From IMG/VR virus record IMGVR_UViG_3300042507_000944, positions 1 through 26,390 of that record: a DNA stretch of 26,390 nucleotides. One strand, 5' to 3'. Within the stretch, counting starts at the first letter, position 1; every line of letters begins with the position of its first letter. Source of the stretch: a virus. This document shows, piece by piece, positions 2,278-26,390 of this stretch. Below the pieces are notes generated by a model. That model saw only the letters and a program-made list of their open reading frames with translations. It was not told the DNA's origin and searched no databases. The translations under genes were made by a program, and so were the position numbers.

Positions 2278-2322
2278 ATTATAACACGAGAACGTGAATT
2301 CTCGTGTTGTGTTTACGCAACA
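2278..2322 (-). promoter_or_regulatory. Promoter module B: inverted repeat plus TATAAT
   Basis: On the minus strand, TGTTG-N8-CAACA (arms at 2305-2309 and 2318-2322) is followed after exactly 21 bases by a perfect TATAAT (2283-2278). It overlaps the end of the FkbM methyltransferase gene and the hairpin at 2283-2308. Fifteen of the 18 bases of the repeat match module A. It is placed to drive the 67-, 75-, 75- and 81-residue genes. Confidence 0.55.
2283..2308 (-). terminator. Hairpin after the FkbM gene
   Basis: A perfect 10-base stem, AACACGAGAA and TTCTCGTGTT, with a 6-base loop lies five bases past the methyltransferase stop codon. In the leftward transcript it is followed by AUAAUAAU rather than a U-run, so as an intrinsic terminator it would be weak. 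Because it also fills the spacer of promoter module B, it may instead be an operator or do both jobs. Confidence 0.45.
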
Positions 2323-3137
2323 GTTTTATCAAAATCAAATAATTTTTCCATTTGCGTTTGGCGAACACGTTCGTTGGGCTGGAACCATAAGTCCATTTCA
2401 CCACGATACTTAACACCCTCATAACGTAGTTCAGTTTGATGACTTGAAAACTTACCATAGAGGTTGCCACGATTTTTACTAACCACGGTATAGTCTAGAC
2501 TGCGGATCCATTCAATCATATCCTCGCCCCAATAACCAAACTTGCGACATTGATTAGCAACAATCTCAAGTTGCAATGTTGGGCGGCAGCGTTGAATAGT
2601 TTGTTCTGCACCTTCTAGCACAAACTTTTCATAACCTTCAACATCAATCTTAATGAATCCAACATCTTGAAAGTTGTATGAATCTAGAGTTTCAACTTGA
2701 ACAGGAACTTTAACACGATTACTTCTATTTTTATCAGCACGAGGATTTTTATCATAATGTGCTAGATGATTATGCCCACCATTCTTCCAATGTGTAATAA
2801 TTTCCGTTGTGTATTGTTTTTCGCCAACACCAACACGATGTAATGTCACGTTGGCAACATTATTATCACGGACGGTATTCTCCCATAACTGCTGTGCCAG
2901 TGGTGTAGGTTCAAAGCATTCAACTTGACTAAACTTTTTAGCATAGTGAATAGCATTGCAGGCATTGTTAGTGCCCACATCTATTGCACGTGACCAATTG
3001 TCAATAAGTGTCTGTGCAAATTCCCAGTTTGTTTTCTGGTATTGTCCTGCTTGTAGTCGTTGAATGTAGAGCGTATCGCCCTCTTCAACCCAATAGATAT
3101 GCCCATCTTTACTATGAACTGGCAGTATGTTTGTCAT
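2313..3137 (-). CDS. FkbM-family methyltransferase
   Basis: 274 residues with the class I SAM-dependent methyltransferase fold of the FkbM family. The SAM-binding loop is AIDVGTNNA (residues 51-59), an acidic strand end CFEP follows near 74-77, and the family signature IKIDVEGYE is at 162-170. A following RPTLQLEI strand is also typical. FkbM enzymes O-methylate sugars or small molecules. In phages they may modify host or virion glycans or other polymers; the substrate here is unknown. The N-terminal 45 residues are an extra beta-rich segment and the last 60 residues a further extension. It is preceded by a 40-residue gene with a short gap and no strong ribosome-binding site. A hairpin and promoter module follow, so it likely closes its operon. 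Confidence 0.85.
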   Translation of the reverse strand: MTNILPVHSKDGHIYWVEEGDTLYIQRLQAGQYQKTNWEFAQTLIDNWSRAIDVGTNNACNAIHYAKKFSQVECFEPTPLAQQLWENTVRDNNVANVTLHRVGVGEKQYTTEIITHWKNGGHNHLAHYDKNPRADKNRSNRVKVPVQVETLDSYNFQDVGFIKIDVEGYEKFVLEGAEQTIQRCRPTLQLEIVANQCRKFGYWGEDMIEWIRSLDYTVVSKNRGNLYGKFSSHQTELRYEGVKYRGEMDLWFQPNERVRQTQMEKLFDFDKTVA

Positions 3138-6537: not shown

Positions 6538-6801
6538 TTATCGGCGAAAATCATTCCATTTTTTCTTGCAGTTATAACACTTAGTTCGCCAGAATGTGTT
6601 GTCATCACGATCCTGTTTGCGTTCAATGACTATGACTCGATCTCTAACCATTAGGTCGCAGTCATCGCAGGGCTGGTGTGTTTTCTTAGGTTCAAAGATC
6701 ATGTCTTCATAGGCTTCTTCAGCAAGATGCCCACCCCACTTCCTTTTAAAACTGCCCAGTGGTTTTACAAGTTGTTCAAACTTTTCTTTTTTCATACTCA
6801 T
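6538..6801 (-). CDS. Zinc-ribbon protein
   Basis: 87 residues. Cysteines at 45, 48, 75 and 78 form two CxxC knuckles (CDDC and CYNC) about 26 residues apart, with beta strands between (RVIVIERK), which is a classic zinc ribbon. The N-terminal 40 residues are basic and helical. Such proteins bind DNA, RNA or RNA polymerase. The gene is the last of the right-hand module. A perfect 20-base palindrome (6794-6813) covers its start codon and no ribosome-binding site is visible, so expression may be autoregulated. A start at the third codon (also ATG) is possible. Confidence 0.75.
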   Translation of the reverse strand: MSMKKEKFEQLVKPLGSFKRKWGGHLAEEAYEDMIFEPKKTHQPCDDCDLMVRDRVIVIERKQDRDDNTFWRTKCYNCKKKWNDFRR

Positions 6802-8383: not shown

Positions 8384-11242
8384 TTAACCTAATGCAATCA
8401 TTAATGCAATCACATCTTCGGTATCTGCTGCTGGACCGCTAGGTCCTGATGGTCCTGTTGGACCCGGCACTGTTGAAGCAGCACCTTGAACGCCTTGTGG
8501 TCCTTGTGGTCCGGTAGCACCTGCGTCACCTTGAACGCCTTGTGGTCCTTGTGGTCCGGTAGCACCGGTATTGCCTTGTGGTCCTGTTGGGCCCACGTCA
8601 CCTTGAACACCCTGAGGTCCTTGTGGTCCAACATCTCCTTGAACGCCTTGTGGTCCTTGTGGTCCGGTAGCACCTGTTGGTCCTTGTGGACCAGTTGGTC
8701 CAAGAGCAGCCAAGTTGGTCCAGTTTGTGCCAGTCCAAATGCTAGCAGCACCCGTTTCGTACTTGACAGCATCAGGTGTCAATGTGCCAGTGATAAATCC
8801 ACTGCCGTTGCTGGCATCAATACGATTGACAACACCCAAGAACTGGATGAAGTTTGATCCTGTTGGCATTACATCAGTGTATCCACCAGTAGCACCTAGA
8901 TAGATGCGATCGCCTGTGCTAAATGCTGCTGTGTTAACACCTTTGATTTCACCAAGAACCAACATGCGTCCTTCAGCTTGATCTGCTAGTGTCACATCAA
9001 GAACACCTACTGCAACCTTAGCTGGATCATCTGCACGAGCTGCACCAACAGTAATGGTGTTGCCACTAATGCCAACTTGATAAACTGGTGTGCCTTTGCT
9101 TAGACTTCCACCGCTGACGTTTTTAACATTCTCATAGATTGTCTTGGCATTGACACGGTCAGTCCAATCAGTAGTTCCATCAGCGTTGGCCACTAGGTAT
9201 TGATCATCAGTTGCCGGAGCTGTTGTTGGCAATGTATATTCATTAAACAGTGTCAATCCAGTGGTGTTGATATTAAGGACTTCTGTATTGTCCGCATATA
9301 TTACAACACCACTGCCAGTTGTTCCGGCGGCAATGATAGCACCACCACGGAAATCATTTGCATTAGCCTGTATGTTAAGACCACTGTCATCACCAGCACC
9401 TTTGATATAAGCAGCACCGCCAAAGGCAAATTTTAAACCTGTTTCGCTTAGAGTGGCAAAAGTTGTGCCATCTGCTTTTTGGAATTGATGACTATCACTG
9501 TTGTATAGATTAGCAGTGTTCTTAAGTTCTAAACGAGTTGCTTCAGTGGTTGTGCCAGTATTGACAGTTTGAAATATCATTCTACTACCACGAGCACTAC
9601 CTGTAAAGTCTTCCATTGCAGTGACCTGTATGCGGGCAGTGCGACTTCCAGCTCCTGTGCTGCTGTTAGAAGTTTGTCCGTTAAACAGCAGTTTACCAAC
9701 ACTGTCGCCATTCCTTAATGCATTTCTACGACCACTTGCACCACTTCTGCGTCCACTTGAAAACACTAAGAAGTTGGTATCATTCAATGTAGTGTTATCC
9801 GCACCACTGTTCATTGTCATTGAACCAACTGTTTGACTTGTGCCCACAGTGTAGGTTCCTACACCACCAGTTCCTGTGCCCAGGGCGGTAATAAATGTGC
9901 CTGAAGTGACGCCTGTTGCATAGACACGTTGTCCAATACTGATAACGCCACTGCTAACTGCTGTGACATCTAATGTAGTGCCACTAATGCTGGCCGTGAA
10001 TACTGCTGCATCTTCAAACGGCACACCAAACATTACTAACTGACTGTTGATAATGTTCATTGCTGTTCTACCGTAGCCAGTGTGGGTATCAACACCGTTG
10101 GACATAGTCAATGTTGGTGCATCATTAAATGCATTTCCAAAGTTTAAGAATGAGGTAGGAGGAGCTGATGCTGAACCTGCTGCCCAATTCTGATTAAAGA
10201 ATACTTGACGACTTGTTGTGTTTAGTTGAACACCTTGTGGTTGTGCTCGCATGATAATTCGTGCACCACTATTAGTTGATGTTGTGGCATTGCCCGCAAA
10301 TGCTTCGGTGGATAATCCAATAATTTGTGCTGGTGCAAGATCAATATCACTGGCCCAACGAGCACCGTCGTATCCACCACCGGCAATGACAAATAATGTG
10401 TCACCGCTGCCTGTGGCTGTTGGTGTTGCTGGTGTTCCGCGACCACCTTCCATTAAGAACGCTGGAGTTGCTGGTGTCACTCCAGTGCCGCCTGGACGAT
10501 TTTGTCCATACCCACGTAGAACAAATTCTGGACGCAACCCTACGGTGTAGTTGCTAACAACCATTGCTGGTGTTTGTGTGTTTCCTGCACGAATCAATGC
10601 CTGTCCGTTGGCATCTAGAGGAAATCCACCTGATGAAACTAAATCTTGTGTGACTACACTGTTGAATATGACATTGCTGGTAGTGTTTAGGCTTTGATCA
10701 GCACCCGGTCCGCTCGGTCCAGTTGGTCCAGCATCACCTTGAACTCCTTGTGGTCCTTGTGGTCCAGTTGCTCCAGCATCGCCCTGTGGTCCTTGAGGTC
10801 CTACTGCACCCGATGGACCTTGTGGACCGGTATCTCCAGTTGCACCACTAGGTCCACTAGGACCAGTTGGTCCAGCATCACCTTGAACTCCTTGTGGTCC
10901 TTGAGGACCCACTGCACCAGTTGATCCATTAGCACCTGAAGGTCCTTGCGGTCCTGCTACGCCTTGTGGTCCAGTATCTCCAGTTGCACCACTTGGTCCT
11001 TGAGGACCTGCAACTCCCTGTGGTCCTGCTGGTCCAGATGCACCACTTGGTCCAGTTGGTCCCACTGCACCTGCACCGGTGATTAAAATACCACCAGGTG
11101 TTGAACCATCACCAATGCGGAATTCTTGTGTATCTACAACCCATAGTGGTTCTCCGGCAGCAGCTTCATAGGCTAAAATACTTGTCTCGGTGCCTCTACG
11201 CAGTTGTAGCGGAGGAATGTCGAAATCGTTAGGTGTTGTCAT
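8384..11242 (-). CDS. Collagen-like tail fibre with Mtd-type N-terminus
   Basis: 952 residues. Residues 10-52 (LQLRRGTET..., [17 protein letters not shown]) match the N-terminal attachment domain of the phage major tropism determinant type. Residues 61-180 are 40 uninterrupted Gly-X-Y triplets of collagen type. Residues about 185-840 are beta-rich fibre domains, including a segment near 720-830 ([37 protein letters not shown]) common in aquatic phage fibres. Residues about 848-922 are 25 more triplets, then STVP and four further triplets, and a short hydrophobic end. The collagen parts should form a rigid trimeric stalk. It lies between the 939-residue fibre and small adhesin genes, so it is a receptor-binding or side fibre. 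The repeats could vary in number by recombination. Confidence 0.85.
8455..8705. repeat. Collagen-coding repeats, C-terminal block
   Basis: Near-identical repeats of 36-45 bases code for units of the type [11 protein letters not shown]. The core CCTTGTGGTCCTTGTGGTCC appears in almost the same form at about 8492, 8536, 8606 and 8644. This part of the fibre gene is prone to unequal recombination and to misassembly. Confidence 0.7.
10709..11065. repeat. Collagen-coding repeats, N-terminal block
   Basis: A second set of degenerate short repeats codes for the 40 Gly-X-Y triplets near the fibre N-terminus. Several units share sequence with the C-terminal block, so exchange between the two blocks is possible. 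Confidence 0.65.
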
Positions 11243-23328: not shown

Positions 23329-24189
23329 TTAAACAGTTGACTGGAAGATTGATCTTACGCCGTACTGCTGATAAACAGTTCCAACACCATACATGGCTGA
23401 GCAAACAACATCAGTACCGATAGCACGAGCACGACGCTGTGTTTCGATCTGGATGTCACGCATTAGACCAAAGCCCAATGCATCACGGTGGAATACACCA
23501 CCTAAGAAATCATTAGTGCTCGGGCCGCTTTGTGGAGCATTGCTGCTTTCATAGACTGGAACACCGAACAACTGTCCGATATAACCCATACGCATTGCTT
23601 CGTTGGCAACATCACCGAATGCACCACCGCTGAAAGCTGTGTTGCCAGTTGTTGTCAAAGCTGACTTCAAGTCATAAGCAATTCTCGGATGTAGAACTGC
23701 TACAATACCGTCGCTGCTTACGCCTTGTGATTTCAACTTAGTAATAGCTTCCATAACCAAAGCTGGGCTAATAGTTGTGCTAGTGTTTCCAACTGTGTTA
23801 GTTGTGAAGTTAGCAAATTGACCCATCAAGTCAATGTCAATCTTACGAGCAACTGCTTCACCGAATAAACGGCCTAGGTCAGCAACTACGTTAGATGCAC
23901 TTGCGTTTACAGCTAGGTCAGTGACCATAGTAGCAAGACCAACTTGACCAACTGTGAAAGTTGCAACATCAGTGCTAACTTCAGCAATAGCGAAGTCATC
24001 ACCTTCAGTCAAACTTGCCGCAGTTTGCACTGGGTAGATTGGCACTTGAATAGTTTTACCTTGGCTAGGAGCCAAAGAATAGTTTTTAACCAAACCACGC
24101 ATAATACTGCGTTCGTTGGCAACGAACATCGCTTCTTGAACGATGGTAGGTAATAGGTCATTTAATGTGACGCTTGTAGATCCAGCCAT
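23329..24189 (-). CDS. Major capsid protein, HK97 fold
   Basis: 286 residues. It has the N-terminal helix SVTLNDLLPTIVQEAMFVAN, the strand KTIQVPIYPVQTAASLTEGD, the spine helix ASNVVADLGRLFGEAVARKI, and the A-domain segment VAVLHPRIAYDLKSAL, then GQLFGVPVYESSNAPQSG and RDIQIETQRRARAIGTDVVC. These are typical of the aquatic-phage HK97-fold capsid subfamily near P22 and N4 coat proteins. No N-terminal prohead sequence is fused; the scaffold is a separate gene upstream. It forms the icosahedral shell. The ribosome-binding site is AAGGAA, and codon use is even, as in a highly expressed gene. Confidence 0.88.
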   Translation of the reverse strand: MAGSTSVTLNDLLPTIVQEAMFVANERSIMRGLVKNYSLAPSQGKTIQVPIYPVQTAASLTEGDDFAIAEVSTDVATFTVGQVGLATMVTDLAVNASASNVVADLGRLFGEAVARKIDIDLMGQFANFTTNTVGNTSTTISPALVMEAITKLKSQGVSSDGIVAVLHPRIAYDLKSALTTTGNTAFSGGAFGDVANEAMRMGYIGQLFGVPVYESSNAPQSGPSTNDFLGGVFHRDALGFGLMRDIQIETQRRARAIGTDVVCSAMYGVGTVYQQYGVRSIFQSTV

Positions 24190-24211: not shown

Positions 24212-24880
24212 TTAGGCTAATCCAGCAGACTTGCGGTATTCCGCGTATAATTTTCTATCTGCTGGGTTTGACATGTTTAACTTTGACACGTCAAATTTCT
24301 CTCGTGATTGATTCACATTGCTCTTACCTTGTGTGGTAGCTGGGCCTGCAGACTTGAAGTGCGGATTGCTGTCTAAGAATTCTTTAACTAGGTCCTCTAC
24401 TTTGAAAGGTTGACCCTTGTCTGAATATCTCACTGTGCCTTTTTCATCTAGCACTTCAACTTCACCCGTTTCGCCTAATCTAAGATTAGACTTCAATAAT
24501 GCTTGCACCTGTTTGGGATTCACTGCACCTAATTGTGCGGCAGTGTTTACCAAAGGCATATCCACTGTGTAAGATTTAATGATCTCATCACGCTTACGTA
24601 TTTCTTCGTCTTTCTTAGCAGCTAGGTCAGCAATGATCTTATCAAAGTCCCCTCGCTTCTTTTGAAGCTCAAGTTGTTGCTGTTCGTGTGTTGCTTTGAG
24701 TTGACGTAGTTCATCAATGTCACCTAGTTCAGCAAGTGTCTTTTCATACTTCTTCTGGACTGCACCTTTTGTGCGGGCCATCATGTTGTCGACTTCTTCC
24801 TGTGTATAGGTCTTTACTGATGTTGCCTGGTTTGTTTCGGAAGACCCAGTATCTTCATTAGCCAATGTATTGTCTGACAT
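24212..24880 (-). CDS. Scaffolding protein
   Basis: 222 residues, very charged. Residues about 26-110 form a coiled coil (TYTQEEVDNMMARTKGAVQK, HEQQQLELQKKRGD, KKDEEIRKRDEIIKS). A middle NTAAQLGAVNPKQVQALLK lies at about 112-131, and the C-terminal DPADRKLYAEYRKS-type helix-loop-helix resembles the capsid-binding end of scaffolds. Position directly before the major capsid gene supports the call. It directs capsid size and leaves, or is destroyed, at maturation. No protease motif is seen. A 5' hairpin at 24913-24935 and a TATAAATA box precede the gene. Confidence 0.8.
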   Translation of the reverse strand: MSDNTLANEDTGSSETNQATSVKTYTQEEVDNMMARTKGAVQKKYEKTLAELGDIDELRQLKATHEQQQLELQKKRGDFDKIIADLAAKKDEEIRKRDEIIKSYTVDMPLVNTAAQLGAVNPKQVQALLKSNLRLGETGEVEVLDEKGTVRYSDKGQPFKVEDLVKEFLDSNPHFKSAGPATTQGKSNVNQSREKFDVSKLNMSNPADRKLYAEYRKSAGLA

Positions 24881-25338: not shown

Positions 25339-25434
25339 TTAAAAAAGTTTTACTGTTAGTAGGGCAATGCCATAAAAGGTCAATGTCCAAATGCCACCTA
25401 AGGCAAAGTATTTGATCTTTTCAGTCTTAGACAT
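25339..25434 (-). CDS. 31-residue single-span membrane protein
   Basis: MSKTEKIKYFALGGIWTLTF followed by YGIALLTVKLF. A short basic N-terminus is followed by one hydrophobic segment of about 20 residues (10-29). Its ATG overlaps the portal stop as TAATG, giving direct translational coupling. The coupling, length and clear membrane span suggest a real gene. Tiny membrane proteins of phages may be spanins, holin partners or exclusion proteins; nothing selects among these. Confidence 0.6.
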   Translation of the reverse strand: MSKTEKIKYFALGGIWTLTFYGIALLTVKLF

Positions 25435-26390
25435 TACTCATCCTCCATAGGTTCCCACTTGGCACACCAGAATACTGCACGAACTGGTGCATCAAACTTA
25501 GTGCAATAGAGTTCGCCCGGCTTGTAGTATTCACAGTTGCCGCAGTTTTGTCCTTCTGGAACTTCTGCGTTTGAGGCAGGTTGATATGCGTTGGGTAAGT
25601 TTGCGTTGATCTCTTCACCATCAGGATAGAGCCTGCCTGGCTGTGGATTAGGATCAATGAATGGCAGACGAGCTTTTTCTTCGCCTAGCATTTCAATTAG
25701 TTGTTCATCAATAACACGGAACATAACAGGATCAGTTGCAGCTGACTTAGCTGAAACCAACTGTGATATCTCACGCTGTTCATCGCGGATGTTGAAGCTG
25801 TCTGGATAGTCTACAGAACCATTCCACATGCGTCCTTGATACAGACCGAACAACTTCCAAATTTGTTCTTCAGCTAGTTCTAGTTGATCTGCTTTCTCTG
25901 CCAGCTTGGCGTTGAGCAATTGGAACTCCGTCTCGAGTGAAACCCCAGAAGCGGTTTGTGTCTTGGTAGTGCGAACACCTGAGGTGAAACTCATACGCTC
26001 AATAGCTTCGACTAACTTGTCTATGCTGGTATGAATATTAGGAACGCTGGTTCCGCCTGACTCCAAATAATACGGATTTTGTCCTGCGTCCGCGCCTTCT
26101 TGTAAAACAATAATAGCGCCGGCACCTGAACCCAACTGTGCTGTTGCAGGAACAACTAGGCTGGGGTGCCCGTCTAAGCGGATTGCCTGTTCATTCTCAC
26201 TTTGTAGATTGTATATCTGACGCTGAACATCCGAGATGTCAGTAATGTCGCTTACACCTAGATCTTTTGTGATGCCACGCTGATTGTAGACTAGGATAGC
26301 AGGGATCTTGCCCAGCATATTCAACTCTTCATCACGCAAGACTGCTTCTTTCTTAACATCGTCCATTTGATATGTTTTGATAGTTTCACG
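25434..26390 (-). CDS. Portal protein, C-terminal part, with four-cysteine cluster
   Basis: The frame is open past the right edge, so the N-terminus is missing; residue numbers count from the Met at 26366. Segments LGVSDITDISDVQRQIYNLQ, then SIDKLVEAIERMSFTSGVRT, then SGVSLETEFQLLNAKLAEKA match the stem, crown and clip parts of portal proteins from aquatic phages. The gene lies directly upstream of scaffold and capsid genes, as portals do. After residue 265 comes an extra domain with Cys 275, 278, 288 and 301 and aromatic residues between, close to the high-potential iron-sulphur protein (HiPIP) pattern C-x6-[LIVM]-x3-G-[YW]-C-x2-[FYW], except that F299 replaces the glycine. The portal forms the dodecameric DNA channel. 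The terminase gene probably lies just outside the window. Confidence 0.75.
   Translation of the reverse strand, partial: RETIKTYQMDDVKKEAVLRDEELNMLGKIPAILVYNQRGITKDLGVSDITDISDVQRQIYNLQSENEQAIRLDGHPSLVVPATAQLGSGAGAIIVLQEGADAGQNPYYLESGGTSVPNIHTSIDKLVEAIERMSFTSGVRTTKTQTASGVSLETEFQLLNAKLAEKADQLELAEEQIWKLFGLYQGRMWNGSVDYPDSFNIRDEQREISQLVSAKSAATDPVMFRVIDEQLIEMLGEEKARLPFIDPNPQPGRLYPDGEEINANLPNAYQPASNAEVPEGQNCGNCEYYKPGELYCTKFDAPVRAVFWCAKWEPMEDE

Follow-up and report, generated by a model that had tools for sequence, protein, structure and literature searches.

The virus record IMGVR_UViG_3300042507_000944 of IMG/VR, analysed here as one stretch of 26,390 nucleotides (the window), ends within a portal protein gene of an aquatic phage, and the last residues of this portal contain four cysteines. 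This raises the question what such a tail is, if it holds a metal and, if so, what a metal site could do on a protein of the phage head. A first-pass annotation had read the portal end as C-x2-C-x9-C-x12-C with a closing W-C-A-K-W, and its frame, coordinates and spacing are all correct. The features referred to below are as follows.

25434-26390, minus strand: portal protein gene, C-terminal 318 codons (open frame)
25599-25667, minus strand: linker LPFIDPNPQPGRLYPDGEEINAN from the last portal-core helix to the four-cysteine domain (low pLDDT in a relative)
25437-25598, minus strand: HiPIP-like four-cysteine domain LPNAYQPASNAEVPEGQNCGNCEYYKPGELYCTKFDAPVRAVFWCAKWEPMEDE, last 54 residues of the portal (Pfam, PDB profile, hhalign)
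25584-25586, minus strand: Tyr at Cys1-14, conserved in the LPxxY motif
25542-25544, minus strand: Cys1, putative cluster ligand
25533-25535, minus strand: Cys2, putative cluster ligand
25527-25529, minus strand: Tyr at Cys2+2, aromatic cage position (Tyr in 24/24 of the core-only set)
25503-25505, minus strand: Cys3, putative cluster ligand
25464-25469, minus strand: Trp at Cys4-1 (24/24 Trp) and putative ligand Cys4 (codon 25464-25466)
25455-25457, minus strand: Trp at Cys4+3, the other aromatic conserved in HiPIPs (24/24 Trp)
24212-24880, minus strand: scaffold-like protein, head module context (gene position)
23329-24189, minus strand: major capsid protein, context (Pfam Phage_capsid_4, E=3e-11)

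The stop codon of the portal gene lies at 25434-25436 on the minus strand. Since the virus record stops at 26390, its edge cuts off the 5' part of the gene and the portal is incomplete; full-length homologous portals in IMG/VR comprise 517-570 aa. The open frame matches the phrog_145 portal (E=6e-23) and carries the four-cysteine domain at its C-terminus, which bears out the fusion proposed earlier. The limits then given for the domain were 25434-25580; its start lies further upstream, at about 25598, because the LPxxY segment is part of the domain. An AlphaFold model of a full-length relative resembles solved portals in Foldseek comparisons (SH-Ab15497, 8xb5, E=1.8e-17; SPP1, 7z4w, E=7e-9). 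The tail is joined to the final core helix by a linker of low model confidence, whose counterpart in locus L097 (residues about 440-480) has a pLDDT of about 43-50.

The scaffold-like gene sits between the portal and capsid genes, in the order also seen in Pelagibacter phage HTVC112P. This phage, too, has an FkbM-family methyltransferase near its head genes; the one in the window is encoded at 2313-3137 (minus strand; Pfam E=6e-20). Also on the minus strand of the window are a tail-fibre-like protein of 952 aa with long collagen-like Gly-x-y (GPQGPQG) repeats (8384-11242) and a zinc-ribbon-like protein of 87 aa with two CxxC motifs, CDDC and CYNC (6538-6801). In another locus (L133:457-3165), a 903-aa open frame apparently joins a terminase (start MALSATQQTVADCDKRFRVVIAGRR) to a portal, as a fusion or as an assembly artefact.

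Conservation of the tail among portals

Portals were collected from IMG/VR with patterns derived from the portal core only, and 78 of them were read through. Because the fetching patterns came from the core only, the tail had no influence on the choice of these portals. A homologous four-cysteine tail was found in 24 of the 78, about a third of the portal group, so that the same tail does occur on other portals, as the first-pass annotation had proposed to check. All 24 share the C-x2-C-x9-C-x12-C arrangement, a Tyr at Cys2+2, a Trp at both Cys4-1 and Cys4+3, and the LPxxY motif. The 2-9-12 spacing recurs in each of 89 distinct portal contexts. A profile search of all open frames in the loci collected up to that stage yielded 173 distinct complete copies of the domain, every one with all four cysteines kept and none with a cysteine exchanged for histidine; loss of the cysteines in close homologues, which had been named as an argument against the domain, did not occur.

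Mean identity in the core-only set amounts to 76% for the domain versus 68% for the core, with 21 of 166 core windows equally conserved. An earlier set had given 92% versus 61%, values that we dropped as inflated because most of its loci came from patterns inside the domain. At fourfold synonymous sites inside the domain 41% differ, a divergence that rules out a very recent spread as the cause of its conservation. The four-cysteine tail is more than chance.

The cysteines might bind no metal at all and be linked by disulphides, or form a chance cluster at a fast-changing protein end. Portal C-termini are highly variable in this family, and AlphaFold finds no fold for the tail: AlphaFold2 of the domain alone (42 sequences) reached a pLDDT of 53 and a pTM of 0.28, with no confident fold, and within the full portal the pLDDT of the tail is about 40-52. 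Such low values could be expected if folding of the tail is cluster-driven, as reported for PioC, and are no evidence for a fold. Against a metal-free tail stand the invariance of spacing, cysteines and aromatics across portals of about 50-60% core identity, the identity above that of the core in the core-only set, and the recurrence of the module in unrelated host proteins (see below), and we regard this explanation as highly improbable.

In L033 (5001-5930; on the same contig as L099), a TGA in the same frame lies between the portal core and a HiPIP-like tail that is itself intact. A single mutation or an assembly error is the probable cause; recoding was also considered.

Similarity to HiPIPs

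The last part of the tail had been proposed to fit a PROSITE-style HiPIP pattern with one exception, and C-TKFDAP-V-RAV-F-W-C-AK-W indeed does so with a single change, G to F. With the tail alone, the best Pfam match is HIPIP, at 23.7 bits for 57 aa and 21.3 bits for 45 aa (cut-off 22), and the whole 318-aa portal fragment scores 19.1 bits, under the cut-off; a HIPIP match at E<=1 was obtained for 40 of 42 domain copies. A profile built from 42 phage copies and free of cellular HiPIPs gave HiPIPs as its nine best matches among all PDB sequences, led by 2hip (E=1.1e-4). The single tail sequence finds PioC first, as a weak match (E=0.02). Aligned with 13 cellular HiPIPs by hhalign, the portal copies reach 94.7% and the protease copies 73.8%. 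The scores of 39-41, at 94-95%, compare with a mean of 12 and a maximum of 23, at about 1%, in 100 shuffles in which the non-cysteine columns were permuted and the cysteine columns kept; as the score of the portal copies falls from 41 to a mean of 12 on shuffling, the similarity extends beyond the cysteine columns. A search of about 85,000 prokaryote genomes found a single cellular relative, a HiPIP of a betaproteobacterium whose leader is Tat-like (confirmed at 65.7 bits). By Pfam, the PDB profile and hhalign against shuffles, the resemblance noted in the first-pass annotation appears as distant sequence homology, and we consider a kinship of the tail with HiPIPs very probable.

The 2-9-12 spacing of the portal tail falls within the HiPIP arrangement C-x2-C-x(8-16)-C-x(12-13)-C. 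Cellular HiPIPs have 2-16-13 or 2-12-13, and PioC, with cluster ligands Cys22, 25, 34 and 47, has 2-8-12 (PMC7462912). Like the minimal HiPIPs (PF01355) PioC (PDB 6xyv, 7a4l, 7a58) and Iro, the phage tail combines four cysteines in the form C-x2-C-x8/9-C-x12-C with an aromatic residue at Cys2+2, a Trp before Cys4, an aromatic at Cys4+3 and, possibly, a counterpart of the upstream Tyr. The Trp before Cys4 and an aromatic two or three residues after it are a conserved HiPIP feature (PMC7462912), and Trp occupies both places in all 24 core-only portals. The Tyr of LPxxY is located at Cys1-14 in the phage tail and is possibly the counterpart of the conserved N-terminal Tyr that packs on the cluster of HiPIPs, which in the cellular ones is found at -22 to -25. 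Unlike HiPIPs, the phage tail has no Gly at the consensus position Cys4-2, which is Y, F or W in portals and F/Q/N and others in proteases; this Gly is a consensus and not a strict feature, 2 of the 15 cellular HiPIPs compared here being likewise without it. Moreover, classical HiPIPs are exported, stand-alone electron carriers, whereas the phage domain is the C-terminal domain of a portal, a structural host protein, with no export signal and with a putative cluster.

Four-cysteine sites in cytoplasmic phage proteins often hold zinc, and the four cysteines of the tail could bind one zinc ion as well, in a small structural domain that is merely HiPIP-like. A weak match to Zn_ribbon_RRN7 in 3 of the 42 copies (best E=0.11) would agree with this. 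A zinc ribbon, however, needs two CxxC knuckles, and the tail has a single CxxC and two isolated cysteines. The best Pfam match being HIPIP, the zinc-ribbon match that would have told against the earlier proposal did not occur; HiPIPs also rank best in the PDB, and the similarity resides in non-cysteine columns, too. The lack of any Cys-to-His exchange in the 173 distinct copies and the fusion to ferritins described below likewise argue against zinc, the latter making iron the likelier metal and giving a hint of redox or iron handling next to DNA. We therefore hold a zinc site to be improbable; that the tail contains a [4Fe-4S] cluster in vivo is, in our estimate, probable.

A mobile module of phage proteins

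The four-cysteine domain is a mobile module, an aspect absent from the first-pass annotation: besides portals, its carriers include prohead proteases, Dps-like ferritins and a minor head protein. In related portals, the slot of the tail is taken by a helical 'HIQxMIMEGY' module, by an 'NPxTGE...TEQEH' module or by nothing recognised. The cores of L280 and L281 are near-identical and their tails different, and on the portal-core tree the HiPIP label changes 14 times, with at least 8 changes forced by well-supported branches. The phage records tested have one copy of the domain each, the sole exception being two in one protease; among these records, none with a tail-less portal has the domain. 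In L038, L062 and many other portals, NPxTGE...TEQEH and HIQxMIMEGYTDxxILALHPE are interchangeable C-terminal modules.

Hundreds of IMG/VR stretches encode a prohead protease variant of the domain, mostly with 2-15-12 spacing and with the same LPxxYxPA...VPEG lead-in. The carriers, that of Pontimonas phage phiPsal1 (MG835450) among them, were confirmed as Peptidase_S78/phrog_80; in the collection searched, phiPsal1 is the only phage with the domain for which a cultured host is named in the record. A third variant (ICANCAFY..., mostly 2-8-12) was found elsewhere in proteases and in the minor head protein phrog_7625. One HiPIP-like domain of a minor head or head morphogenesis protein (phrog_7625, phrog_2841) is encoded in L385:2533-3918. 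The protease frames of L160, L169, L379 and L396 also match Pfam Hva1_TUDOR near the N-terminus.

The portals of L426-L429 lack a tail, and the gene that follows, adjacent to the portal stop, codes for a ferritin domain (Pfam E-values of 1e-19 to 1e-22) whose C-terminus is the same HiPIP-like module behind the same RxYPDG linker (e.g. L426:1339-2007); this part of the portal linker moves with the domain onto Dps proteins. The same fusion was found in L425, a stretch without a portal. The ferritin of L419-L423 bears a six-cysteine relative of the domain, and in L430-L432, L440 and L044 the six-cysteine module is on the portal; with L277 and L310 included, this relative occurs on Dps, at the portal C-terminus or alone. 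In no portal-Dps locus is the cysteine module on both proteins; it is on either the one or the other. All 21 Dps genes (21 of 21) keep the Dps ferroxidase motif H-x11-H-x14-D-x3-E unchanged. Dps genes are absent from all 178 loci whose portal has the HiPIP tail, and no ferritin is encoded in the window record.

Dps-like ferritins with ferroxidase ligands have been described for gut phages (PMC8008677). Those found here differ in lying beside the portal and, in relatives, in the HiPIP-like fusion, neither of which is described in the passages of that report considered here. Uncultured-phage proteins of DSL-LC01 and Manatee Spring carry the submitters' annotation 'high potential iron-sulfur protein', and the one of DSL-LC01 adjoins capsid maturation proteases. 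This type aligns with the phage domain set (hhalign 91.5%) but differs in its six cysteines, a long insertion, the lack of a Pfam HIPIP match and a value of 13% against cellular HiPIPs. The annotated HiPIP of a Dishui Lake phage is unmentioned in the main text of the corresponding paper.

A relative of the NPxTGE...TEQEH module is also present on Dps (L436, L438). Because a module without a cysteine cluster occupies the same portal and Dps slots, a structural adaptor has to be considered: the domain would derive from a HiPIP and fold around its metal but play no redox part, serving instead to attach portal, protease or Dps to a shared partner, such as the capsid interior, DNA or a host factor, and the cluster would merely hold the fold. 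In favour of an adaptor, the C-terminal slots of the portal and the neighbouring Dps share unrelated modules (HiPIP-like, six-cysteine and the cysteine-poor NPxTGE...EH), the HiPIP label switches at least eight times on the portal tree, and the module is in different head proteins in different phages. On the other hand, the strict keeping of the cage aromatics and of all cysteines argues that the cluster site itself matters. In addition, a covariation test for a partner of the tail in scaffold or capsid gave no support for one: their similarity does not follow the tail type, and thus no partner is visible within the head module. We consider the adaptor rather unlikely.

Possible roles in the phage head

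Our preferred reading, to which we give an even chance, is a HiPIP-type [4Fe-4S] module on head proteins with an iron or redox role. According to this proposal, the tail would belong to the HiPIP superfamily, as a minimal member similar in size to PioC and Iro. While still in the cytoplasm, it would most likely receive a [4Fe-4S] cluster from the host iron-sulphur assembly machinery, and this cluster would drive its folding. A flexible proline-rich linker would suspend the tail from the portal core at its C-terminal end; tails attached in this way would, in a complete portal ring, line the inner side of the portal vertex in about twelve copies, beside the packaged genome. Portal crowns are C-terminal and shift towards the centre of the capsid (PMC7234808); as proteases and minor head proteins belong to the head, too, the module is most likely displayed inside the head. 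The HiPIP-like tail would represent one of several interchangeable C-terminal modules, placed by relatives on the Dps of the next gene or on the protease.

The data show the kinship in sequence, the invariance of ligands and aromatics, the mobility of the module and its link to Dps; cluster type, position inside the head and redox role of the tail are what we infer. Its most likely task would be a part in the iron or redox chemistry of the head or its surroundings, for example electron transfer to or from bound iron, or protection of the DNA against oxidative damage. A redox or iron role of the module as such is a possibility that we rate at a little under even. A more specific proposal, namely that aquatic tailed phages equip each portal subunit, on the inner portal face, with a redox-active [4Fe-4S] HiPIP module, which they exchange with neighbouring Dps ferritins and maturation proteases, and that part of the head thereby serves iron handling or protection of the genome from oxidation, is put forward tentatively.

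Several points speak against the preferred reading of an iron or redox module. The predicted metal and fold derive from sequence, the consensus Gly before W-C is missing, and HiPIPs are normally exported, stand-alone electron carriers. The tail is on only about a third of the portals and near relatives have cysteine-free modules in its place, which shows that a portal can do without it. The cysteine-free module type on the Dps of L436 and L438 favours a generic adaptor. Finally, the window record is without a ferritin, and Dps was found in 0 of the 178 HiPIP-tail loci.

Phage tail-tip hubs, i.e. relatives of lambda gpL, and the hub of the R. capsulatus GTA have an iron-sulphur cluster (PMC7296036 and reference therein). 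They resemble the portal tail in having a four-cysteine iron-sulphur cluster, putative in the portal, in a structural protein of tailed phages, and differ from it in protein (the tail hub), domain and location; no homology is claimed. In the literature we found no HiPIP or iron-sulphur domain described for a portal, a prohead protease or a phage Dps. The HiPIP label, phage Dps and clusters of tail hubs were already known; new is a domain, HiPIP-like by its sequence, in an unexpected host protein.

The copies on portal, protease and Dps suggest that virus heads harbour an iron or redox chemistry as yet unexplored. As the module is present in several hundred contigs, any role would be widespread. 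Annotators can also now name hundreds of cysteine-rich termini of phage head proteins that had lacked an explanation. If the cluster is confirmed, a dodecameric tailed portal would bring about 48 additional iron atoms into each virion where only DNA handling is expected, head assembly would be tied to the host iron-sulphur supply, and it would become directly testable whether phage heads carry iron.
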